DNA of 38,268 bases from a virus: IMG/VR virus record IMGVR_UViG_3300024520_004183, positions 1 through 38,268 of that record; one strand, 5' to 3'. Both the position numbers and the translations under genes were made by a program. This document shows, piece after piece, positions 5,502 to 16,573 of this stretch. The notes beneath the pieces were generated by a model. That model was given only the letters and a program-made list of their open reading frames with translations. It made no database searches and was not told the DNA's origin. Within the stretch, counting starts at the first letter, position 1; each line of letters opens with the position of its first letter.

Positions 5502-6421
5502 TGACCGATAAGGAGTTTGGTGATTTGATGACCACACTGGAAAGACAAGCCCAGGATGGCACGCAAGACCAACCAAGACACTATGATAAAAGAGAGACTA
5601 TCGACCGTATTCATCAAATGGCGAAGGAATATAATGGTGATGATAAGGTGGTTTCCTCGCTAGAGATACTTGAGCGAGTAAGGAACGAACCAGAAGAGAC
5701 AAAGATGATGACAGGGGTGCCATCGCTAGATAAAATCCTCGGTGGTTTTAGGCCGCAGCAAGTTATAACCCTCACAGGAATCACCAAACACGGGAAGACC
5801 TCTTTTGCCCTTGACCTGGTCTCAAAGTTAAAAGAAAATAACCCGACCTGCCTACTTTTTGAAGAACCGCCAGAAGAGATTATTCGGAAGTTCCTTGAAC
5901 GCGGGGACGAAGTGCCCATTTTTTATACACCGCAAAGAACACCAACCCGCACTATTGATTGGATAGAGAAGAAGATCATTGAGTCAAAGGCTAAGTTTGA
6001 TACAAAGATCATCTTTATTGACCACTTGGGTTACATAGCGCGCAGTAAGGGGGAGAACGCAGCTTATGAGATTGAGCAGACCATGCAAGAACTCAAGACT
6101 CTAGCTAAACGGTGGGATGTTATTGTTTTTCTCCTGGTCCATCTGAAAAAAGTGAAGCTCGACAGGAACCCAGACCTCGAAGACCTCAAGGGTAGCTCTG
6201 CTATAGCGCAAGAATCAGATACAGTAATGATTCTGTGGCGAGAGACAGAGCGGATCAATGGAGAAGTTGTGATCACAAACGAAGCCACGCTATCTATCCA
6301 AGCCAACAGACGCACAGGGACAACCGGCAATGTCCACCTAATCTTCCGGGACGGTAAATTCTCTGAGAGCGACACCCAGCACGCAGAGGACGACGCAACA
6401 AATACATGGGACAGTGTTTAA
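5498..6421 (+). CDS. DnaB-like replicative helicase ATPase domain
   Basis: This is a 307-residue RecA-fold ATPase of the DnaB C-terminal type. Walker A is GITKHGKTS (94-102) and Walker B is IIFIDH (171-176). The DnaB-specific DLKGSSAIAQESD (about 229-241) is followed by QANRRTGTTGNVHL, where the arginine-rich beta-hairpin lies. An N-terminal 65-residue helical part is much shorter than the DnaB primase-interacting domain. The ATG overlaps the stop of the initiator gene; a second ATG follows at once. It is probably loaded at the iteron origin by the upstream protein, and no primase or polymerase is encoded, so host enzymes would finish the replisome. Confidence 0.85.
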   Translation: MMTDKEFGDLMTTLERQAQDGTQDQPRHYDKRETIDRIHQMAKEYNGDDKVVSSLEILERVRNEPEETKMMTGVPSLDKILGGFRPQQVITLTGITKHGKTSFALDLVSKLKENNPTCLLFEEPPEEIIRKFLERGDEVPIFYTPQRTPTRTIDWIEKKIIESKAKFDTKIIFIDHLGYIARSKGENAAYEIEQTMQELKTLAKRWDVIVFLLVHLKKVKLDRNPDLEDLKGSSAIAQESDTVMILWRETERINGEVVITNEATLSIQANRRTGTTGNVHLIFRDGKFSESDTQHAEDDATNTWDSV

Positions 6422-6443
6422 TTATTAGTCATCAATTATTATT

Positions 6444-6905
6444 ATGAGCAATGTAGTAAAGCAAAACGATCGCATAGAAGAGGTCAAGCAACTTCGTAGG
6501 GACATCGAGACCGCCTTCATCTTCTTGGGACAGCGACTCGAGGAGATTCACAAAGACCGGGAGTGGGAAGGTCGATACGACAGCTTCGAGGATTTCTTAC
6601 TAGATATTGACTTGTCTCCGGGGCAGGCTAGCAAGTTACGGAATATCTATACTAGGTTCGTCTTAGAACTAGGCTTCCAGGCGTCTGAAATCGCCCACAT
6701 AGGCCAGCGAAGGCTCTACGCGATACTTCCCACCTGTGTCGACAAAAACACCGCAGAACGCAATTTTGCGTCAATCAAGGGACTGACCACGAGTGACGTA
6801 GAAAAGAAAGTTAAGGCTGATGTGGCGGGGGAACATGACCATAATTGGATACAATACCGTATGTGTTCTGTTTGTAAGGAAACTCATCGCCTATATGAAG
6901 ATTAG
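6444..6905 (+). CDS. HTH-type phage protein with C-terminal zinc knuckle
   Basis: In this 153-residue protein, residues 9-75 are helical with the pattern LGQRLEEIHKDREW..YDSFEDFL..DIDLSPGQASKLRNIY. This resembles the helical HTH domains of plasmid and phage regulators in which a Y-x-S-F-E-E-x-L motif precedes the recognition helix. Residues 130-150 contain HDHNWIQYRMCSVCKE, a likely His-His-Cys-Cys metal site. A DNA-binding regulator or replication accessory is plausible. It starts 22 bases after the helicase gene; no clear ribosome-binding site is seen. Confidence 0.6.
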   Translation: MSNVVKQNDRIEEVKQLRRDIETAFIFLGQRLEEIHKDREWEGRYDSFEDFLLDIDLSPGQASKLRNIYTRFVLELGFQASEIAHIGQRRLYAILPTCVDKNTAERNFASIKGLTTSDVEKKVKADVAGEHDHNWIQYRMCSVCKETHRLYED

Positions 6906-7200
6906 TAGCGAAGCGCAGGGGCGCAAAGACACACCGATATTCTCAGGGGTGTTGAGATATTTTCCAGACGCACTACTTGATGTTGCGCGGTGTTCAAAGG
7001 CTGGGAACGACCAACATAACCCTAGCAAGCCATTGTTTTGGGACCGTACGAAGTCGCAAGACGAGCTTGACGCTCTTACGCGACATTTGATAGACGCGGG
7101 GACGTTGGATACGGATGGGGTGCGACATAGTACCAAGGTCGCGTGGCGAGCATTAGCAAATCTTCAAAAAGAAATCGAAAATGCCAAAGGAACTGATTGA
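6895..7200 (+). CDS. DUF5664-like (dATP/dGTP diphosphohydrolase N-terminal) protein
   Basis: This 101-residue protein is taken from the ATG at 6895, inside the end of the preceding gene. The sequence GRKDTPIFSGVLRYFPDALLDVAR ... LTRHLIDAGTLDTDGVRHSTKVAWRALANL matches the small phage family known as DUF5664, named for the N-terminal domain of dATP/dGTP diphosphohydrolases (G-K-x2 P ... AL-x-VA ... RHL ... D-x-D-x-G-x-xH). The His and Asp residues would form a metal site. It may tune nucleotide pools for replication. The residue pattern is clear, though catalytic activity of the stand-alone domain is unproven. Confidence 0.7.
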   Translation: MKISSEAQGRKDTPIFSGVLRYFPDALLDVARCSKAGNDQHNPSKPLFWDRTKSQDELDALTRHLIDAGTLDTDGVRHSTKVAWRALANLQKEIENAKGTD

Positions 7201-7519
7201 ACAACTCAAGGCTGATAACTTCTACGTTAAGTCTGCCCTTTCTGGACATCGACCTGTACAATGGCATCATGTATTTACTTTCGCGGGGAAATCCATCCAA
7301 GAACCATGGAACATTGTCCCTCTTACCAAAGACGAACACGATGCAGTTACGCCACACAAACCAAACTATGACAGGGAGGCTGATGAGCATGTCCGCTGGA
7401 TAGCGCTCAACAGAGCCTCTAATTTACAACTCAACAGTTACTCTAAGGTCGAAGATTTAATAGCAATAAAATGGAGACTAAACTTAAAATATGGCAAAGA
7501 GAAAATGCTTAGTGTGTGA
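7181..7519 (+). CDS. HNH-family endonuclease-like protein
   Basis: In this 112-residue protein, WHHVFTF (His29-His30) is followed 14 residues later by Asn44 in EPWNIVPL and by His53 in KDEHDAV. The H-H ... N ... H spacing and the W-N-x-V-P-L segment are those of a compact HNH beta-beta-alpha-metal nuclease core. It lacks the CxxC structural zinc pairs of many HNH proteins. It overlaps the previous gene by 20 bases and the next by 29. Placed between DUF5664 and RusA, it probably works in recombination or DNA processing, not as a homing endonuclease. Confidence 0.7.
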   Translation: MPKELIEQLKADNFYVKSALSGHRPVQWHHVFTFAGKSIQEPWNIVPLTKDEHDAVTPHKPNYDREADEHVRWIALNRASNLQLNSYSKVEDLIAIKWRLNLKYGKEKMLSV

Positions 7520-7658
7520 ACAACCACTACCACCAACAGCAAGTATGGTACACGAAGGCACACTGTGTCGTTCTTTTATGAACCAGGGAACCTTCGTCAA
7601 GGGCCGATTCCAGATCAACAAGGCCAACAAAGACCGCTTCCAACATCTATTCGTATGA
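7491..7658 (+). CDS. Small CxxC protein (55 aa) before rusA
   Basis: This short basic protein begins MAKRKCLVCEQPLPP with a second Cys later (TLCRSF) and a Lys/Arg/Asn-rich end. It overlaps the HNH gene by 29 bases, and its TGA overlaps the RusA ATG (ATGA at 7655-7658), so it is embedded in a coupled chain. The single CxxC plus one Cys suggests a partial zinc knuckle. Likely a nucleic-acid-binding accessory; function unknown. Confidence 0.6.
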   Translation: MAKRKCLVCEQPLPPTASMVHEGTLCRSFMNQGTFVKGRFQINKANKDRFQHLFV

Positions 7659-8008
7659 TCCACCTTATCCTCAAAGGCAAACCAATCTCAACCAATCTTG
7701 CATACAGATTCACATGCCGGGGACGATTTGCTTCCATGTACATGGAGGGTAAGGCGAAAGCTCTAAAAGAGGACTATGCGTACCAAGCAAAGCAACAGCA
7801 CAAAAAACCACCACTAGAGGAAGATCTTTCAATTGGCCTAAAGATATATCACAAAGACAAACGCAAACATGACATAGACAACTACTGCAAACTCGTATTC
7901 GACGCACTCAATGGAATTTTATGGAAAGACGACAACCAGATCATCGAACTAATAATACAAAAGTACATAGACAAGGAAAAACCTCGTTTAGAGATAATCG
8001 TCAACTAA
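7655..8008 (+). CDS. rusA: RusA-family Holliday junction resolvase
   Basis: This 117-residue endonuclease cleaves four-way junctions. The RusA signature is plain: KRKHDIDNYCKLVFDALNGILWKDDNQI contains the catalytic acidic residues (Asp73, Asp75, Asp83 and Asp92 or Asp93). The N-terminal strand LKGKPISTNLAYRF is also typical. Length equals that of E. coli RusA. The chosen start overlaps the stop of the upstream CxxC gene (ATGA); a longer frame from 7565 would overlap it and lacks family-like sequence. It probably resolves recombination intermediates made by the phage RecA before packaging. Confidence 0.92.
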   Translation: MIHLILKGKPISTNLAYRFTCRGRFASMYMEGKAKALKEDYAYQAKQQHKKPPLEEDLSIGLKIYHKDKRKHDIDNYCKLVFDALNGILWKDDNQIIELIIQKYIDKEKPRLEIIVN

Positions 8009-8078: not shown

Positions 8079-8852
8079 ATGGGAGCATACCTAGGAAAAA
8101 TCGCAAATGACGCAAGATTAAAAGTTTTAGATTTAATCTTCAATGCACAAACCTCCCATATCGGGAGTAATTTTAGTTGTATAGACATAATGGCTTGTAT
8201 TTTTGAGAGGGTGGATCTCGACAGGGACAAGTTTATTTTGAGCAAAGGGTGGGCTGCGGCTTCACTCTATTATTTTTTACACCGCAAGGGACGTATTACA
8301 CAGAAGCAACTGGACTCCTATTGCCAGGAAGGCAGTGAGTTCATAGGTCTTGCAGAACCTATTCATCCAGACATCCCTTTTGCGGGGGGTTCTATGGGGC
8401 TCGCCTTGCCTGCCGCTGTTGGGTTTGCGCTCGCCAAGAAGATCAAGGGTGAGCCCGGGACGATTTATGTTCTCATGTCAGAGGGAGAGATACAGTCTGG
8501 CACCACGTGGGAGGCAGCCATGATTGCTTCTCATTTCAAGCTAGACAATCTTATGGTGATCTTGGACAACAATGGACATCAAGCAATGGGAGCCACGAAG
8601 GACATTATGGACTTCAACCCGGTGTGTAATAAGTTTGTAGACTTTGGGTGGGAGACAGCACAGGCAGACGGACATAATTATATTTTGTTTGCGCGTGAGC
8701 TCCGTAACAATAAAGGGTTGCCCAAGTTTATTGACGCCAAGACGGTCAAAGGTAAGGGGGTGCCGTTTATGGAGGACGACAACATCTGGCACTACCGCGC
8801 ACCGAATGAAAACGAGTATCTATCAGCTAAAACAATCTTATGTCAGAGATAA
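8079..8852 (+). CDS. Transketolase N-terminal (TPP-binding) subunit
   Basis: This 257-residue protein corresponds to the first subunit of two-subunit transketolases. It keeps HIG (SHIGS, about 27-30), GSMGLALPAAVGFALAK (104-120), the Mg/TPP motif MSEGEIQSGTTWEAAMIA (133-150) and LDNNGHQ (162-168). Ordinary enzymes have GDGE where this has SEGE, a Glu in place of the Mg-binding Asp, so activity may differ. It would supply the diphosphate-binding half that transfers a two-carbon ketol. It overlaps the next gene by 13 bases. A role in making or branching an unusual sugar fits the cluster better than central metabolism. Confidence 0.88.
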   Translation: MGAYLGKIANDARLKVLDLIFNAQTSHIGSNFSCIDIMACIFERVDLDRDKFILSKGWAAASLYYFLHRKGRITQKQLDSYCQEGSEFIGLAEPIHPDIPFAGGSMGLALPAAVGFALAKKIKGEPGTIYVLMSEGEIQSGTTWEAAMIASHFKLDNLMVILDNNGHQAMGATKDIMDFNPVCNKFVDFGWETAQADGHNYILFARELRNNKGLPKFIDAKTVKGKGVPFMEDDNIWHYRAPNENEYLSAKTILCQR

Positions 8853-9337
8853 CCCAAGAAACAGACACACGCCGTGTGTTTATTGATACCTTGTGTGAAC
8901 TGGCACAAAAGGATGAGCGCATCGTATTTATCGTCCCAGATGTCGGTTTTAACTATGCTGAAAAGTTTCAGAAGATGTTCCCAGACCGTTATTTCAATTT
9001 CGGAGTTACAGAGCAATCAACAATCCTGGCCGCTGCGGGGATGGCTCTCTCAGGACTGAAACCTTATGTGTATACCATGCTTAACTTTAGTGTGTTTCGA
9101 CCCTTTGAGATGGTTAGAAATGGTGTGGCACTGCATAATGCAGACGTTAAGATCCTTGGTGTCAAAGGTAGCGAGAAGTATAAGTTCTTAGGGTTCTCAC
9201 ACAACATGGTTTTTGAGGATGAGGACATATACCACCTAGAGCCTTATATGAAATGTTTCAAGCCGGAGGTGGGGGACGTGAAAGAAGTAATTGTCGATAC
9301 TTATAATAGTGATAAACCTGTATATATACGCTTATGA
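8840..9337 (+). CDS. Transketolase pyrimidine-binding subunit, short
   Basis: In this 165-residue protein the transketolase Pyr domain is present: the catalytic Glu58 is in NFGVTEQSTILAAAGMALSGLKPYVYT. The usual second subunit is about 310 residues; here the C-terminal transketolase domain is absent and the frame ends after KPVYIRL, with an ordinary stop and an ATG overlap (9334-9337) into the next gene. So it is a naturally minimal subunit, not a visible frameshift. It should pair with the upstream protein to form the thiamine site at the dimer interface. Confidence 0.85.
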   Translation: MSEITQETDTRRVFIDTLCELAQKDERIVFIVPDVGFNYAEKFQKMFPDRYFNFGVTEQSTILAAAGMALSGLKPYVYTMLNFSVFRPFEMVRNGVALHNADVKILGVKGSEKYKFLGFSHNMVFEDEDIYHLEPYMKCFKPEVGDVKEVIVDTYNSDKPVYIRL

Positions 9338-10380
9338 TGGTTAAATTCGTTGATTTCCCAAAGCAATATCATAAATATCAAGCTGAACTTGACAATGCAT
9401 GGCATGGTGTAGCTGAACGGGGTGATCTTATTCTTAGAGAAGATGTCGAGGAGTTTGAGGAGAAGCTGGCTGCCTTTGTGGGAACCGGGTATGCGGTTGG
9501 TGTAAACTCCGGCACTGACGCCTTGTTTCTCTCACTAAAGATGCTGGGAATTAAAGAAGGGGATGAGGTGATAACGGTAGGTCACACTTTCCACGCCACA
9601 GTTGAGGTGATTCATCATTGTGGAGCAACTCCCGTATTGGTAAATGTTGGCAAAGATAGCATGATGGATTTGGAAGAGGTCAAGTCAAAGATTACAGAGA
9701 ACACGCGGGCCATCATTCCGGTTCATCTAATGGGAGACATGGTAGACATGAAGGCTCTTGCCGAAATGACCGACCTCCCGATTATAGAGGACGCTTGCCA
9801 AGCGCTCGGGGCTGAGATTGATGGAAAGCGGGCGGGGGCATGGGGTTTAACTGGCTGCTTCTCTTTTTACCCGGCTAAGATACTGGGTTCTTTTGGTGAT
9901 GCGGGGGCAATAACCACAGACGATAAAGAAATGGCTGACGAGCTCAAAGACCTCCGGAATCACTATAAATATAATCCGGGCAAGTTTGGTTACAATTCAC
10001 GACTAGACAATCTGCAAGCTGCATTGCTTAATGTAAAGATAGACCACCTACCAGAGATGCTTACCCGTCGCAGAGAGATATCTCAGATTTACGATCATCT
10101 ACTACAGGACGTTGATATCACCCTCCCCACACTCCGACACGGCCGTGTATATCAAGATTACATAATTCGCACCGATAGGCGCGACGAGCTGGCCGACTTC
10201 CTAGAGGATAACGGGATTCAAACAATGAAAAATGACTATCACTTCCCGGATTCTCTACCCAAGCCACAAGATACCATCGAACTAGAAAGGCAAACTCTCA
10301 GGTTGCCGTGTAATGACGTGCTAGAAGATATTGAGATTATGTATGTCGTTAAGATGGTCCGTGAGTTCTATGAAAAATAA
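9334..10380 (+). CDS. DegT/DnrJ/EryC1/StrS-family sugar aminotransferase
   Basis: This 348-residue PLP enzyme has GVNSGTDALFLSLK (56-69), the hydrophobic PLP ring stack region HTFHATVEVI, IIEDACQALGA (150-160, PLP-binding Asp153) and the Schiff-base Lys182 in SFYPAKILGSFGDAGA. The length and motifs fit nucleotide-sugar 3- or 4-aminotransferases such as WbpE. With the WbpB-like oxidoreductase and WbpD-like acetyltransferase in this genome, a WbpE-type 3-amination of a UDP-hexuronic acid is a good hypothesis. A second ATG at 9337 is an equally good start. It overlaps both neighbours. Confidence 0.9.
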   Translation: MMVKFVDFPKQYHKYQAELDNAWHGVAERGDLILREDVEEFEEKLAAFVGTGYAVGVNSGTDALFLSLKMLGIKEGDEVITVGHTFHATVEVIHHCGATPVLVNVGKDSMMDLEEVKSKITENTRAIIPVHLMGDMVDMKALAEMTDLPIIEDACQALGAEIDGKRAGAWGLTGCFSFYPAKILGSFGDAGAITTDDKEMADELKDLRNHYKYNPGKFGYNSRLDNLQAALLNVKIDHLPEMLTRRREISQIYDHLLQDVDITLPTLRHGRVYQDYIIRTDRRDELADFLEDNGIQTMKNDYHFPDSLPKPQDTIELERQTLRLPCNDVLEDIEIMYVVKMVREFYEK

Positions 10381-11185
10381 ACGCATCCTCGTTGCTGGTG
10401 GAGCTGGCTCAATAGGGTCTGAACTTGTGAGGCAGTTATCAGAACACAATAAGGTTTATGTTTTGGACACCAACGAATCGGCGTTGTTTGATCTCACGGA
10501 TTCTCTCAAGGGCCGTGATGTGTGGGGCAGGGTTGGGGACATCAAAGACTATAAGACTGTATCAGATGTATTTGAAGACTTTAAGCCACAAATAGTATTC
10601 AATGCCGCGGCATACAAACATGTGCCGCTTATGGAGTACACGCCCTTAGAGGCCATAAATACCAACGTGATAGGGCATTACAACCTAGTACACGTAGCGA
10701 AGACGTGGGAGTGCGTAGAGCGATTTGTGTATGTGTCCACCGATAAGGCGGTTAGTGCTAACTCTGTCATGGGGGCCACCAAAAGGCTGGGAGAGATCAT
10801 TGCAATCAACAATGGATTCACTGTGGTGAGGTTTGGTAACGTGATGGGAAGCAGGGGAAGCCTACTACCTATATGGCAACGACAGGTTGATGCCGGTCAA
10901 TCAATCACTGTGACAGACAAAGGGATGGACCGCTACATGATGTCAATACCAGACGCTTGCGAGTTGGTGGTTGAGGCTACCAAACACAAAGAGGTGGGCA
11001 TCTTCGTTATGGACATGGGAGAGAAGATAAACATATACGACCTCGCTCACAAAGTTGTGAAAGGAACCAAGACGAAGGTTGAGCTGACACAAATGCGCCC
11101 AGGCGAGACATTAACAGAAGAGCTTATGACCAAAGAAGAAGAGTTAAGAGCTATTAAGAGTGGTAATTTTTGGATAATAAAATGA
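10370..11185 (+). CDS. CapD/PseB/WbpM-like nucleotide-sugar dehydratase
   Basis: This 271-residue extended short-chain dehydrogenase starts at the ATG at 10370. NAD motif GGAGSIGS is at 10-17. The family-typical AAAYKHVPLMEYTPLEAINTN comes next, then YVSTDKAV (121-128), then MGATKRLGE with Met134 and Lys138. Met in place of the usual catalytic Tyr is the hallmark of the WbpM/FlaA1/PseB group. VRFGNVMGSRGS and MRPGETLTEEL follow. It is shorter than PseB (about 330). It probably dehydrates UDP-GlcNAc or a related UDP-sugar. It overlaps the DegT gene by 11 bases and the next gene by 4. Confidence 0.9.
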   Translation: MKNKRILVAGGAGSIGSELVRQLSEHNKVYVLDTNESALFDLTDSLKGRDVWGRVGDIKDYKTVSDVFEDFKPQIVFNAAAYKHVPLMEYTPLEAINTNVIGHYNLVHVAKTWECVERFVYVSTDKAVSANSVMGATKRLGEIIAINNGFTVVRFGNVMGSRGSLLPIWQRQVDAGQSITVTDKGMDRYMMSIPDACELVVEATKHKEVGIFVMDMGEKINIYDLAHKVVKGTKTKVELTQMRPGETLTEELMTKEEELRAIKSGNFWIIK

Positions 11186-11994
11186 GGAATCTAAATATAG
11201 GCCATGGTAAGAGTGGGCGTTCACTTAAATTTGCAATCATAGGTAAGGGGTTTATCTTTGATCGACACGTTCAAGCTATTGAGGGTGTGGGTGGTCAGGT
11301 TTTGTTCACTTGCGACATAGACGAAACTAAAAACCCAAATTTCACCGACTGGCTTGAGATGTTCAATGACCCAAGGTTTGACGAGGTTGATGCAGTAGTA
11401 ATTGCAGCGCCCAATTATCTACACGCGCCAATTACCCGTGAGGCACTTTTACGGGGAAAGAAAGTCTTGTGCGAGAAACCCCTAAGCATAGGAGATACAA
11501 AGGGAATGGGGGGAGTCTTTACTGTTATGCAACTCCGGCACCATCCCGAGTTATTGAAACTAAACAAGCCTAAAGAGATAACAGTTACAGCTAAGATGTT
11601 CAGAGATGAAGTCTATTGGGACTCATGGAAGGGTAATGATGTTAAGTCGGGAGGGATACTTTACAATCTTGGTGTGCACTATGTTGACCTTGCTGTGTTC
11701 CTGTTGGGTGACTCATGGGAGATCGAGACTGTGGAAAAGTCTAAGAAAAAAATAACTGCACGTGTTAGATTTGGAGAGAGTGTCGCTGACTTCCACATTG
11801 AGGTCGTTGACAGCAGGGAGGAGCAAGGTCGATCCCTTCAGGCAGACGGTAGAGAAATCGTTCTCTCAAATCAAGACAATTTGTCGTATGAGGACTTACA
11901 CACAGCAGTATATAAGGAATTTGTAGCAGGTCGCGGAGTGAGCCTTGAAGAGGCGGGCAAGAGCCTGAAACTAATAAAAGCGATATTACAATGA
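11182..11994 (+). CDS. Gfo/Idh/MocA oxidoreductase, WbpB-like
   Basis: This 270-residue protein starts from the ATG overlapping the upstream stop; an ATG at 11170 would add four residues. The Rossmann start FAIIGKGFIFDRHV (17-30), the AAPNYLHAPITREAL segment, EKPL (98-101) and the SGGILYNLGVHYVDLAVFLLG block (156-176, catalytic-region His166) are characteristic. VMQLRHHPEL resembles the WbpB/WlbA subgroup, which oxidises C3 of UDP-GlcNAc-uronic acid. It would act just before the DegT aminotransferase in a 2,3-diamino-uronic acid pathway. Subgroup assignment is inference from motifs and context; the superfamily is certain. Confidence 0.88.
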   Translation: MRNLNIGHGKSGRSLKFAIIGKGFIFDRHVQAIEGVGGQVLFTCDIDETKNPNFTDWLEMFNDPRFDEVDAVVIAAPNYLHAPITREALLRGKKVLCEKPLSIGDTKGMGGVFTVMQLRHHPELLKLNKPKEITVTAKMFRDEVYWDSWKGNDVKSGGILYNLGVHYVDLAVFLLGDSWEIETVEKSKKKITARVRFGESVADFHIEVVDSREEQGRSLQADGREIVLSNQDNLSYEDLHTAVYKEFVAGRGVSLEEAGKSLKLIKAILQ

Positions 11995-13019
11995 GATTAC
12001 AGTGCATCAAATGCGTGATGGACAAGAGTGCACCGGAGATAACCTTCGACGAGACGGGCGTTTGTAATTACTGTCACATGGCGCAGCACGAGATATCTCT
12101 GAGTAAGGAGCTGAGAAAGAATGTCCTTGGAATGATCCAAGATATTAAGCAGAAGGGTGGTAAGTATGATTGTTTGATCGGGCTGTCGGGTGGGGTCGAT
12201 AGTTCTACCACCCTAGTAAAAGCAGTTGACGCGGGACTGAAACCCCTTTGCTTCTCAGTCGATAATGGATGGCAGGACCCCAAGGCAGATGAGAACATCA
12301 TGCGCCTTGTTGAGGGTCTGAAGGTTCCATACTACAAATACAATGTAGACAAATCACGGTTTATACGTTTGCAAAGTGCTTTTATTCAGGCTGGTCAAAA
12401 AAACTTAGAGATACCAACCGACCACATACTCATGGCCAAGACGTTGGAAGTAGCAGCAGCAAACGGTATAAAGTGTATCCTCAGTGGAGGTAACGTAAAC
12501 ACAGAATCCATTATGCCCGCCTCTTGGGGATACAACGCTCGAGACCTTGTTCACATGAAAGATGTGTATCACAAGATGAGGGGTAAGCCACTTAAAGGGC
12601 TCCCCGTATGTTCATTGTTAAAATGGAACTACTACAAGTGGGTTAAGGGGATATACACTGTATATCTACTAGATTACTTTGACTATAATAGGGCTGACTC
12701 AATCAAGATGCTTGAGGAGCGCTTTGGTTACAAGGATTATGGAGAGAAGCATTGCGAGTCATCATTTACAATGTGGTTTCAGAACTACTATCTATTCGAG
12801 AAGTTTGGCATCGACAAGCGGAAGGCTCATCTTTCCTCACTGATAAACTCGGGGCAGATCACACGAGAAGAAGCGCTACATGAACTAACTAAGTCGCCAG
12901 TGTATCCCGATCTGGAAATTGATTGTGTAAAATACAAGAAGCGCCCATACACTGACTTCAAAACAGATGAAAAGTTATACCTATTTATTAGTAAAATTAT
13001 AAAAATATGGAAATCATAA
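11991..13019 (+). CDS. N-acetyl sugar amidotransferase (WbpG/PseA type)
   Basis: This 342-residue PP-loop ATPase converts an N-acetyl group on a sugar into an acetamidino group using ammonia from a partner. Two zinc knuckles (Cys5, Cys8, Cys25, Cys28) frame CVMDKSAPEITFDETGVCNYC. The PP-loop LSGGVDSS is at 65-72, followed by FSVDNGWQDPKADENI. CILSGGNVNTESIMP and the aromatic carboxyl half are family-typical. In WbpG systems the ammonia comes from a HisH-like glutaminase; here the neighbour is instead a CTP-synthase-like glutaminase. It overlaps both neighbours (4 and 13 bases). Confidence 0.92.
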   Translation: MRLQCIKCVMDKSAPEITFDETGVCNYCHMAQHEISLSKELRKNVLGMIQDIKQKGGKYDCLIGLSGGVDSSTTLVKAVDAGLKPLCFSVDNGWQDPKADENIMRLVEGLKVPYYKYNVDKSRFIRLQSAFIQAGQKNLEIPTDHILMAKTLEVAAANGIKCILSGGNVNTESIMPASWGYNARDLVHMKDVYHKMRGKPLKGLPVCSLLKWNYYKWVKGIYTVYLLDYFDYNRADSIKMLEERFGYKDYGEKHCESSFTMWFQNYYLFEKFGIDKRKAHLSSLINSGQITREEALHELTKSPVYPDLEIDCVKYKKRPYTDFKTDEKLYLFISKIIKIWKS

Positions 13020-13546
13020 ACGATTTTGATACAAGCGTTCGCAAGGCGTTTGACGAGATCGACCCTCATTGGAAAGAATACAGTGGTATTGTGGTATGTG
13101 GGACACACGAACAGCAGGACATGGAAAAGATCATTGACCGTATCCGTACTGCACGTGAGAAGAGCCTCCCTTTCCTTGGTATATGTGGCGGCTTACAGTT
13201 AGCTGTCATTGAGTACGCCAGGAACGTGTTGAACATTGAAAAAGCGACGAGCCAAGAGTTTGAACCAGCATCACCTGATGCTGTGGTTATCAAAATGCCA
13301 GAGCTGCGAGTAGGAAGTAAGATGGTTGGGACCCGTTTTGAAAGCCACTGGCACAACTACCAAGTGACGCCTCAGATACACTCAGGGCTTAAAGCAGAGT
13401 TTTTGCTGACTGTTTCAGATGGTGTGCTTGAAGAACTGAAGCACTACAGTAAGCCATTCGTAGCTGTACAGTATCATCCAGAATATCAAAGTAGTGTCGA
13501 TGCCCCACATAAGTTATTAGTAGATTTTATCAGTGTATGCAAGTAA
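13007..13546 (+). CDS. Stand-alone class I glutaminase, CTP-synthase-domain-like
   Basis: This 179-residue glutamine amidotransferase has the nucleophile Cys60 in FLGICGGLQLAVIEYARNVL and the catalytic pair His157 and Glu159 in VAVQYHPEYQS. The stretches around Cys60 (AVIEYARNVL), SQEFEPASPDAVVIKMPE, GTRFESHWHNYQV and the HPEYQS end follow the order of the glutaminase domain of CTP synthase, not HisH. No synthetase domain is attached. It probably delivers ammonia to the adjacent WbpG-like enzyme. The N-terminus is shortened. It overlaps upstream by 13 and downstream by 10 bases, so equal expression with the partner is likely. Confidence 0.85.
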   Translation: MEIINDFDTSVRKAFDEIDPHWKEYSGIVVCGTHEQQDMEKIIDRIRTAREKSLPFLGICGGLQLAVIEYARNVLNIEKATSQEFEPASPDAVVIKMPELRVGSKMVGTRFESHWHNYQVTPQIHSGLKAEFLLTVSDGVLEELKHYSKPFVAVQYHPEYQSSVDAPHKLLVDFISVCK

Positions 13547-14382
13547 ATCAATGTCGAGTAGCCCCCTCACTTGGGGCCCTAGAGGGCAGCAACTTTGATG
13601 TGTGGGGCACAAGAGAATACTATAGCGAAGATCGCCCCGCTGTATTCTTTGGTCTATATGGTCTTCCTGACTTTTATGCATTGTGGAGACACGTGGGTAC
13701 CAAGTGGATACTGTGGTGTGGTAGTGACATAACCCACTTCCAGAATGGTTACTGGCTTGAAGAGGGCGGGGGTATTAGGGTTGACTCTCAGCCCCTAGCG
13801 GAGTGGATAAATAAGAATTGTGATAATTGGGTGGAAAATGAGGTCGAACGACAAGCTCTAGCGGATATGGGTATTGATTCCAAGGTGTGCCCTAGTTTCA
13901 TGGGTAATGTTGATGATTATGGTGTAGAGTTTAAGTATAACGATCGCCCCAATGTCTACCTCTCAGCAAATGAGGGCAGAGAGGTAGAATATGGTTGGAA
14001 CTTAGTAGAGGAGATAGCCGACAAGTGTGATGTAGACTTTCACCTATATGGATCAGACACATGGACTACTAAGCATCACAATGTGTTTATTCATGGTAGG
14101 GTGACAAAGCGTGAGATGAATAATGATGTTATGCACATGCAATGTGGGCTGCGCCTTAATGAGACAATGGACGGCTTTAGTGAAATCACAGCCAAGTCTA
14201 TATTGTGGGGTCAACACCCGCTGGTGTGGGCTGCGTACAAATATCCGCATTTGAAGTCATTCAAAGACGAGGCTGAACTGGTCAAGCGACTGAATGAGCT
14301 GACGAATGAGACCCTACCTCACCCGTACCGTGACCATTACAAGCAAGCAATAAACAAATATCCATGGAACACAAAACAGTAG
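13537..14382 (+). CDS. Glycosyltransferase, GT-B type (GT4-like)
   Basis: In this 281-residue protein the C-terminal half has the GT-B donor-binding layout: a strand FHLYGSDTW, then FIHGRVTKREMNNDVMHMQCGLRLN, then GFSEITAKSILWGQHPLVW with the conserved Glu of the E-x7-E-like region. The N-terminal half contains a WILWCGSDI segment and many Trp/Tyr residues, consistent with acceptor binding. It is small for a full GT4 enzyme (usually 350 or more). Probably transfers a sugar made by this cluster to a lipid- or glycan-linked acceptor. Overlaps the neighbouring genes by 10 and 19 bases. Confidence 0.75.
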   Translation: MQVNQCRVAPSLGALEGSNFDVWGTREYYSEDRPAVFFGLYGLPDFYALWRHVGTKWILWCGSDITHFQNGYWLEEGGGIRVDSQPLAEWINKNCDNWVENEVERQALADMGIDSKVCPSFMGNVDDYGVEFKYNDRPNVYLSANEGREVEYGWNLVEEIADKCDVDFHLYGSDTWTTKHHNVFIHGRVTKREMNNDVMHMQCGLRLNETMDGFSEITAKSILWGQHPLVWAAYKYPHLKSFKDEAELVKRLNELTNETLPHPYRDHYKQAINKYPWNTKQ

Positions 14383-15269
14383 CACACTTCATGTATGTAC
14401 CTTTCACTGGCTTAGGTCTGTATGGAGGACATAGAGGAAAGCGGTGGCTCAAAAACCGCATAAAGATATTTAAGCAGTTCACTGTACCATCCTTACAGCA
14501 GCAGACGAACCAGAATTTTGTTTTGTGGGTATCATGGCGCCATGAAGACAGGTTGGACCATGACGTTATGGACTTGTGGTTTGACTTACAAGAGATGTTT
14601 CCTAATCGTATTGTGTTTACTTATTCAGGTGTATGCTTTTGGGATGACAAATACCCTAAAGAGGAGGCTCACGCGCGTTTAGTAGAGGCATTACATGGTT
14701 CAATGGGTAATTTGATCAATTGTCTTGGGGAAGCGGACACAGTGCTTATGACTATACAGCCGAGCGATGATTGCTATTATGCAACAGCGGTAGACGAGAT
14801 ACAGGCCACCCTACAGGATAACAGTTTGGAAGTGTTCGGATATAAGCACGGGTTTGTCATGGATTATATATCGGGCCGTGTAGCTGAATGGAACCCCATT
14901 ACCACGCCCCCGTTCTATACTATAAAGTTTCCCCGTGAAATCTTTGTGGACCCTATTAAGCACGTCAAACATACCGGACCTTATGAATCACATGAGTACG
15001 TTAAAGACTTCCTCAATGCATATTATTGCGACTATCGCGGTTTCATTGTTGGCACGCACGGTGAGAACATCAGCACTGTGTTTGACCACCCATTTGCTAA
15101 AGAAACGGAGGAGAAGCCTGTCGGCTTTCCCGAGTTCGCACCGCTTAAACTAAAAAGTAGCGTGCGCAAGAGCTTGATGCGCATGTTACCACACGGCTGG
15201 CAGCGGAAGCTTAGGTATTGGCTTGGTGAGTGTTTTTATTCTAGGCTTTATAGGTGGCTGAGATCATGA
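14364..15269 (+). CDS. Glycosyltransferase, rhamnosyltransferase-like family
   Basis: In this 301-residue protein the N-terminus (VPFTGLGLYG...RIKIFKQFTVPSLQQQTNQNFVLWVSW) is the signature of a family annotated as putative rhamnosyltransferase (PF11316-type), in which RxxLFxxFTxPSLxxQT precedes a GT-A-like fold. A QPSDDCYY segment supplies a DxD-like acidic pair. The C-terminal 40 residues are basic and aromatic (LPHGWQRKLRYWLG), suitable for membrane association. It overlaps the next gene by ATGA. The real sugar donor is unknown. Confidence 0.75.
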   Translation: MEHKTVAHFMYVPFTGLGLYGGHRGKRWLKNRIKIFKQFTVPSLQQQTNQNFVLWVSWRHEDRLDHDVMDLWFDLQEMFPNRIVFTYSGVCFWDDKYPKEEAHARLVEALHGSMGNLINCLGEADTVLMTIQPSDDCYYATAVDEIQATLQDNSLEVFGYKHGFVMDYISGRVAEWNPITTPPFYTIKFPREIFVDPIKHVKHTGPYESHEYVKDFLNAYYCDYRGFIVGTHGENISTVFDHPFAKETEEKPVGFPEFAPLKLKSSVRKSLMRMLPHGWQRKLRYWLGECFYSRLYRWLRS

Positions 15270-15892
15270 AGTTATTCCGAGACACAAAAGAGCACACAAA
15301 GTACTGGACAGGCAGAGAAATGGACTGGAAAAAGGACTATCTCGATACGTGGGCACACCCACATCGGTACTATATCTCACACATATTGTCCGGTTTGAAA
15401 TGGGGCTCGCTGTTAGAGATTGGCTGTGGTTCTGGCCCAAACCTCGTCAATTTAGTTAAGCATTTCCCAGGAAAGCAGGTAGGTGGTATCGACATTGTGC
15501 CGGAAGCAATAGAGCTTGCGCAGAAGACGTTCAAGGGAGCTTTTCTAAAGGTCGGGTCGGCTGAGGACTTAATGATGTCAGATAAGAGCACTGATATTAT
15601 ACTCACTGATATGTGCCTCATATATGTAAACAAGCCGGACAAGGCAATGAGAGAGATAAGGAGGGTGGCGCGCAATTATGTGATGTTCTGTGAATTACAT
15701 ACAGAATCGTGGTGGATGCGCCTAAGATTAAAGTGGGGATCGGGTTATACGGCGCATAATTATGTTAAACTGCTTCAGAAGTATGGTTTCTATGATATAA
15801 CCAAGATCAAGATACCAGAGGAGATGTGGCCGGGCGGCAACCCACAAAAAGACTACGGATATATAATAATAGCTAAAACACCTAAACGATAA
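15266..15892 (+). CDS. Class I SAM-dependent methyltransferase
   Basis: This 208-residue protein starts from the ATG overlapping the upstream stop (15266); an ATG at 15254 is also possible. Motif I is LLEIGCGSGPN, followed by the acidic end of beta-2 (GGIDIVPEAIELAQK). GSAEDLMMSDKSTDIILTD is the motif II/III region. Near the end are aromatic residues and a GYIIIAKTP strand. Last gene of the sugar cluster, so it may cap or methylate the glycan. Small-molecule or sugar substrate is inferred only from context. The next gene starts one base after its stop (TAA-T-ATG). Confidence 0.85.
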   Translation: MKLFRDTKEHTKYWTGREMDWKKDYLDTWAHPHRYYISHILSGLKWGSLLEIGCGSGPNLVNLVKHFPGKQVGGIDIVPEAIELAQKTFKGAFLKVGSAEDLMMSDKSTDIILTDMCLIYVNKPDKAMREIRRVARNYVMFCELHTESWWMRLRLKWGSGYTAHNYVKLLQKYGFYDITKIKIPEEMWPGGNPQKDYGYIIIAKTPKR

Positions 15893-15893
15893 T

Positions 15894-16355
15894 ATGGACT
15901 TAATTACAATACTATTGGCCGTCATCGCAGTAACCGAGATGACTCGGCTTGTGATGACACACAAGAACATAAGCAAGAAGGCTCATTTCAAAGAGAAACT
16001 AAAGGGAACGGGGCGCATGATCTGGGACCTCGAGTTTAAGAAATTCAAGATCCGCGAGATGCGTGAGGATGTCCGCAAGGAATACGACTTCACAAAGGCG
16101 CGCATTTCCAGCCTAGAGAACGAAATGGAGGGATTTAAGGGAGACAAAGAAGAGAAGGCCCGCATGGATGATCAAATGGTGCTTGCAAAGCGTGACCTGG
16201 AGCGTTTTGAGAGCCAATTACAGTCATTGGATCTTGAAATCAACGGTAGCAAGCCGAATAGTCAATACCCGGACGGCGTTAGTGGCTTGAACGACCAGAT
16301 TGAATCATTAAGAGCTCTGTGTGAGATGCTACAAGCATGGGCTAAAGAGGCTTAA
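15894..16355 (+). CDS. Membrane-anchored coiled-coil protein
   Basis: In this 153-residue protein, residues 1-20 (MDLITILLAVIAVTEMTRLV) form a single hydrophobic anchor; residues 55-115 are charged heptad-like coiled coil (SSLENEMEGFKGDKEEKARMDDQ...). The C-terminus is another short helix. No family recognised. It shares the TAA-T-ATG junction with the cluster but its content suggests a structural or envelope role, not an enzyme. Expression is probably still driven from the 8047 promoter. Confidence 0.6.
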   Translation: MDLITILLAVIAVTEMTRLVMTHKNISKKAHFKEKLKGTGRMIWDLEFKKFKIREMREDVRKEYDFTKARISSLENEMEGFKGDKEEKARMDDQMVLAKRDLERFESQLQSLDLEINGSKPNSQYPDGVSGLNDQIESLRALCEMLQAWAKEA

Positions 16356-16518: not shown

Positions 16519-16558
16519 ACCTAAGAAGAAAAAGAAGAAAGCAAAACGCCCCTATTAA
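16505..16558 (+). CDS. Possible 17-residue Lys-rich microprotein
   Basis: A 17-codon frame beginning ATG GCT, with a run of six lysines after a proline, overlaps the end of the small basic gene by 14 bases. It stops inside the stem of the following terminator. Composition continues the basic theme of its neighbour. It may be a translated leader or chance frame. Confidence 0.25.
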   Translation: MAHVKPKKKKKKAKRPY

Positions 16559-16573
16559 GGGGCTTTTGCTTTA
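16541..16573. terminator. Bidirectional terminator closing the sugar-cluster transcript
   Basis: GCCCCT (16548-16553) and AGGGGC (16558-16563) form a 6-bp stem with loop ATTA; TTTTGCTTT follows on the plus strand, and the A-run before the stem gives a T-run for the opposite strand. It separates the rightward cluster from the converging leftward microprotein genes, whose last stop codon (16571-16573) touches it. Confidence 0.8.

Follow-up and report, generated by a model that had tools for sequence, protein, structure and literature searches.

A CTP-synthase-type glutaminase paired with an N-acetyl sugar amidotransferase in a phage lineage

The phage sugar cassette and its amidotransferase

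The window, by which is meant the whole 38,268-base stretch of a virus record analysed here, carries a sugar cassette (8079-16355; Table 1). RecA-like, DnaB-like and RusA-type genes precede the cassette, and genes for terminase, portal, head and tail-type proteins follow it. Bacterial contamination of the window was rejected, since phage genes follow the cassette here as well as in many other contigs. The transketolase-like enzyme is split over two overlapping genes (8079-9337), an arrangement that recurs in phage cassettes. For the PseB/CapD-like gene an inner ATG was chosen as start codon, the listed open reading frame beginning with TTG at 10331, and the 281-residue protein encoded after the glutaminase gave no meaningful sequence match in the PDB either. 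Terminator-like sites numbered 13 in the region, compared with 7.3 ± 2.3 in shuffled sequences. Far upstream of the cassette, a minus-strand gene (124-819) encodes a protein matching DUF7666 and an Imm5-like immunity domain. Read against established pathways, the enzyme set of the cassette suggests the synthesis of a 6-deoxy amino sugar carrying an acetamidino group.

Table 1. Genes and other features of the sugar cassette, in window coordinates
Feature	Position	Strand	Evidence
Transketolase-like N-terminal (TPP-binding) subunit	8079..8852	+	PF00456, 5.9e-26
Transketolase-like pyrimidine-binding subunit	8840..9337	+	PF02779, 9.4e-21
DegT/DnrJ/EryC1 sugar aminotransferase	9334..10380	+	PF01041, 1.3e-85
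PseB/CapD-like nucleotide-sugar 4,6-dehydratase	10370..11185	+	PF02719, 5.5e-82
Gfo/Idh/MocA oxidoreductase	11170..11994	+	PF01408, 2e-14; start codon uncertain
NASAT, WbpG/WbuX-type N-acetyl sugar amidotransferase, 342 aa	11991..13019	+	TIGR03573, fold, motifs
GAT, stand-alone CTP-synthase-type class I glutaminase, 179 aa	13007..13546	+	HMM, tree, fold, triad
281-aa protein, conserved beside GAT	13537..14382	+	No Pfam, NCBIfam or PHROG match
Rhamnosyltransferase-like protein	14364..15269	+	PF11316, 8e-06; weak, short match
SAM-dependent methyltransferase	15254..15892	+	PF08241, 4.5e-16
153-aa conserved protein, last cassette gene, no function assigned	15894..16355	+	ORF and phage comparison
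Terminator-like hairpin with T-rich tail, 3' of cassette	16548..16563	+	Consensus match only

The N-acetyl sugar amidotransferase (NASAT) of the window scores 215.5 bits with TIGR03573 ('WbuX, N-acetyl sugar amidotransferase'), above the curated cut-off of 203.2, and carries the PP-loop SGGVDS together with a tetracysteine motif (C5/C8/C25/C28). Both elements, the PP-loop in the form SGGXDS, are kept in all 15 aligned phage NASATs, and both are among the defining features of the family named in excerpts of the report on the Legionella NASAT structure (PMC10607449), in which the authors describe ligation of ammonia to the sugar N-acetyl group and propose a chemistry converting ATP to AMP. The predicted fold (pLDDT 91.7) was aligned with that solved structure, LpNASAT (8wex), at Z 23.2 over 294 residues, the next match reaching Z 12.0. 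No NASAT match was obtained in 50,697 records of isolated or deposited phages, and among the titles and abstract starts listed in searches of the open-licence PMC literature there was neither a phage NASAT nor a PyrG-type partner. One related phage contig (L008) has its NASAT divided between two overlapping frames at 6229-7852, through a frameshift that is either real or a product of assembly, and three cellular NASAT open frames (L048, L082 and L098) exceed 600 codons, perhaps through fusion to an upstream gene.

Relationship of the glutaminase to CTP synthase

The glutaminase gene (GAT) opens with ATG and encodes 179 residues followed by a stop codon; its first 13 nt lie inside the 3' end of the NASAT gene, in agreement with the overlap with a WbpG-like gene reported in the first-pass annotation. 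The same annotation had described a CTP-synthase-like glutaminase devoid of a synthetase domain, and this description holds: the three motifs that it quoted are present in the translation, GATase is the top Pfam match (1.6e-21), and NCBIfam ranks TIGR00337 first (PyrG, 1.2e-28), with the best stretch at profile positions 342-429 of 526. At 179 residues the protein is too short for a synthetase domain, and its score of 100 bits lies far below the curated TIGR00337 cut-off for a full CTP synthase (462.75). No synthetase domain was matched among the 20 window ORFs, a subset of the total, that were scanned with Pfam. A split or truncated CTP synthase was also considered, and was rejected because the short form recurs in divergent phages (142-191 residues in 15 aligned copies) and the cassette gave no synthetase-domain match.

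The HisH model TIGR01855 was absent among the 18 NCBIfam matches of GAT at E ≤ 1e-3; across the 15 phage GATs it matched nine weakly (best 7.3e-07), and CTP synthase models matched all 15. When the phage-GAT profile was run against 18 cellular genomes, the best non-phage match was PyrG-type in 16, assigned by the PyrG synthetase motif in 10 genomes and by frame length and glutaminase motifs in six; in the other two (G021 and G027) it was GuaA-type, with no PyrG-type protein among the matches listed. Sixteen of the 50,697 deposited phage records matched GAT, all at below 60% identity, four of them annotated, as CTP synthase (three) or hypothetical protein (one).

A glutaminase tree was computed from 61 rows, comprising 15 phage, 16 PyrG, 23 HisH, 2 GuaA, 3 CarA and 2 PuuD-like sequences. 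For HisH, 24 sequences were drawn from the first 48 of 60 and 23 of these 24 retained, and the GuaA, CarA and PuuD labels are ones we presume from motifs, frame length and general knowledge of the families instead of an HMM. Phage GATs and PyrG formed one group of 31 rows (support 100/99) and HisH a separate group (100/100). The program flagged long branches joining elsewhere in the tree and a bootstrap that had not converged. The phylogeny against PyrG, HisH and GuaA, which the first-pass annotation had named as a check with grouping with HisH as the outcome that would speak against it, thus placed GAT with PyrG and not with HisH; a HisH identity was rejected on the HMM and tree results. The phage GATs as a clade of their own beside PyrG received weak support (54/85), and consequently the tree does not show a single origin of GAT.

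The AlphaFold2 model of GAT (pLDDT 95.6) returned CTP synthases as all of its first 49 Foldseek matches. Upon re-alignment, 36 CTP synthase rows gave Z 21.9-23.8 with an rmsd of 1.5-2.0 over 176-179 residues, and three more gave Z 16.6-18.6; the best fold class outside the CTP synthases was aminodeoxychorismate synthase component 2 (Z 16.6). HisH was not among the 50 re-aligned structure rows, an absence that is not evidence against HisH. By HMM, tree and predicted fold, GAT belongs with the glutaminase domain of CTP synthase, and descent from that domain, or from an ancestor shared with it, is the best explanation.

The catalytic triad of the window GAT is in place (Cys60, His157 and Glu159). 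Among the 15 phage copies, which are 40-52% identical to that of the window in the alignment, Cys and His are retained in every one and Glu in 14, the exception being L006, in which Glu is replaced by Ser. The residues around the nucleophile vary, and the oxyanion-loop sequence differs from that of PyrG; the latter counts, like the L006 substitution, against the reading preferred below. The L006 substitution and the variable surroundings of the nucleophile would be expected if GAT no longer hydrolysed glutamine and acted as a structural or regulatory subunit; retention of the triad across copies this divergent, however, makes such a loss of activity highly improbable. The signatures GFGxRG and MRLG are found in all 16 PyrG rows and in none of the 15 phage GATs. 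GTP sensing by CTP synthase is assigned, in excerpts of PMC9138612, to lid L11 (E. coli 354-362), the wing (431-439) and neighbouring residues. Judged by its sequence, GAT, without the lid and wing signatures, would be free of GTP control.

Gene pairing in phages and in cellular loci

Scans of viral contigs yielded relatives both of NASAT (L005-L020) and of GAT (L021-L044), the latter in many cases distant. The order of genes in the cassette was compared across 20 phage loci and L045, a contig from a metagenome-assembled genome (MAG). GAT is present in 16 of 18 virus records, counted over whole records that may themselves be fragments, with one match per record. In all 17 contigs in which both genes could be read (the window, L002-L008, L010, L011, L015, G012, L019, L020, L021, L023 and L045), GAT directly follows NASAT. 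The two frames overlap by 10 to 55 nt in 15 of these contigs, with start codons chosen by the analyst, and are separated by a gap in G012, in which the end of NASAT, again followed by GAT, is found at the opposite end of the record; L015 breaks off within GAT and includes just its start. Around the pair, the DegT and PseB genes swap order, the methyltransferase gene does so with that for the rhamnosyltransferase-like protein, and Gfo changes place or is not detected. Pairing of NASAT with GAT characterizes a phage lineage as opposed to a single pair of genes.

This order bears on a reading in which GAT is an active glutaminase providing ammonia for CTP synthesis by host or phage, and stands beside NASAT merely through a shared operon. 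Its sequence and fold, those of a CTP synthase glutaminase domain, are in line with such a role in nucleotide metabolism, which is nevertheless unlikely given the position of GAT in a sugar cassette, its constant place after NASAT while other neighbours reorder, the loss from 15 of 15 copies of the lid L11 and wing signatures that excerpts of PMC9138612 tie to GTP control, and the lack of a synthetase domain among the window ORFs scanned.

Both GAT-less virus records (G010 and G013) are of one type (L014, L017), to which a third contig outside the 18-record count, L018, also belongs. This type keeps the sugar cassette, NASAT and the 281-residue gene, and in L018 the latter follows NASAT directly. 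Elsewhere that gene immediately follows GAT within the cassette in 15 of 16 readable contigs, a Gfo gene lying between the two in L019. Both the near-constant adjacency and the retention of NASAT in the GAT-less L014 could be taken to mean that GAT partners another cassette protein, for example this 281-residue neighbour, and that NASAT works on free ammonia. We regard this as improbable, because L014 retains the 281-residue gene as well, and we know of no cassette family other than NASAT that needs ammonia. In the L014 NASAT, four of eight phage-specific conserved positions are changed (E101, E108, P113 and R116 of the window protein), compared with 8 of 91 other positions (p 0.007, uncorrected, with 15 rows tested and three other rows at p 0.036-0.047). 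As docking residues, positions 101, 108, 113 and 116 are only a lead, drawn from aligned sequences.

The MAG contig L045 (29.5 kb; contig C8 of G018) is binned in an Elusimicrobiota genome, and its readable genes resemble those of this phage group. NASAT matches at 1e-40 were found in 6 of 198 Elusimicrobiota genomes, this MAG included, the other five matching far more weakly (best 2.6e-104 vs 3.7e-179). The contig is a possible hint at hosts among the Elusimicrobiota.

For comparison, 80 of 206 NASAT matches were sampled from the cellular side, from which L045 was set apart as phage-like to leave 79 loci. These contain 60 glutaminase-like ORFs in 59 loci; 59 of the 60 are HisH, the exception lying in L092, so that HisH is found near 58 of the 79 cellular NASATs. 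A gene of the AglZ/HisF2 family accompanies HisH in every one of these 58 loci and occurs in two more (L059 and L114), and all 60 such ORFs match model NF038364. Likewise, a Sphingomonas polysaccharide cluster described in PMC11340318 includes genes for WbuX, AlgZ/HisF2 (as printed) and HisH. Twenty of the 79 loci have no glutaminase in the fetched stretch, in several cases on account of contig ends close by. No PyrG-type GAT was found in the fetched stretches of the 79 loci, the best profile match (2.7e-07) being a HisH. Conversely, PF00977, which covers HisA and HisF, had no match in the 18 virus records, which may be fragments, with matches in 14 of 14 control genomes and one partial match in the MAG; the HisF2-type profile found nothing in 21 phage loci or in L045. 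A HisF2-family protein is missing from the phages as well as HisH.

In a NASAT tree of 58 rows (15 phage and 43 of the 79 cellular sequences; L008, with its split frame, and L016 and L021, cut by contig ends, were left out), the phage NASATs formed one clade (100/100). This clade grouped with eight cellular rows (98/96), six of which have HisH nearby, and the GAT-less L014 was nested within it as sister to the GAT-bearing L045 (98/98). Read most simply, the tree points to GAT having been gained once, on the branch to the phage NASATs before the phages radiated, and later lost once. With HisH near 58 of 79 cellular NASATs and a PyrG-type glutaminase in the phage NASAT clade, the proposal of the first-pass annotation that the glutaminase stands in for HisH is supported at the level of gene content.

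A proposed two-subunit sugar amidotransferase and its relation to known systems

Family, fold, motifs, gene pairing, the absence of a HisF-type gene and the tree positions are results of computation, from which we infer glutamine hydrolysis, docking, ammonia channelling and the nature of the sugar product. Most probably, NASAT and GAT constitute a HisF-free, two-subunit, glutamine-dependent sugar amidotransferase made by one partner swap. In such an enzyme GAT would hydrolyse glutamine via Cys60, His157 and Glu159, the ammonia would pass to the PP-loop subunit, and NASAT would use ATP to activate the N-acetyl group of a nucleotide-sugar for conversion to an acetamidino group, GAT thereby substituting for HisH as well as for the HisF-type adaptor. 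With the GTP-sensing signatures missing and both of those proteins replaced, GAT most likely docks directly on NASAT; a single GAT match per record together with the absence of a HisF-type gene likewise makes a direct two-subunit complex likely. With moderate confidence, we propose that a HisF-free sugar amidine synthase of two subunits arose in the phage lineage, in which NASAT is joined by a directly docking, miniature, GTP-independent glutaminase of CTP-synthase origin, perhaps via the NASAT patch at 101-116 that is altered in the GAT-less type. That type (G010 and G013), together with the 20 cellular loci in which no glutaminase was seen, suggests that NASAT may also use free or otherwise supplied ammonia.

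As a rule, a glutaminase is bound to a single synthase by an interface and an ammonia path of their own. If the proposed complex exists, a glutaminase would have moved from the CTP synthase lineage onto an unrelated PP-loop synthase, the HisF-type adaptor and, apparently, GTP control being lost along the way, which would mean that such coupling can be rebuilt. The pair would also offer a compact two-protein system for in vitro work on the little-studied NASAT reaction. The findings further suggest that an amidino sugar is made by some phages themselves, perhaps for the host surface or for a virion glycan.

Known NASAT systems operate with HisH and AglZ/HisF2, as in the WbpG/HisH2/HisF2 and PseA/HisH/HisF types. 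The phage system shares with them a TIGR03573 NASAT with PP-loop and tetracysteine motif, a nearby class I glutaminase gene and a sugar cassette, but differs in that the glutaminase is PyrG-type and encoded directly after NASAT, that no HisF-type gene is present and that it is phage-borne. GAT resembles the PyrG glutaminase domain in sequence family, fold (mostly Z 22-24), nucleophile region and H-P-E motif, whereas it lacks the synthetase domain, the GFGxRG lid and MRLG, and is 67 residues shorter than the E. coli stretch aligned with it (292-537). In its presumed way of working, the pair may be likened to the two-subunit archaeal GMP synthetase, in which a small class I glutaminase (GATase subunit A) serves a separate PP-loop enzyme (ATPPase subunit B). 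The GAT profile match to GMP synthetase subunit A is 6.9e-13; unlike that system, however, GAT is PyrG-type and not GuaA-type, and the substrate would be a sugar and not XMP. A stand-alone PyrG-like glutaminase domain is also the hallmark of NF004836 ('CTP synthase C-terminal region-related (seleno)protein'), which GAT matches at 1.9e-22, although far below the cut-off of that model (79.5 vs 260 bits).
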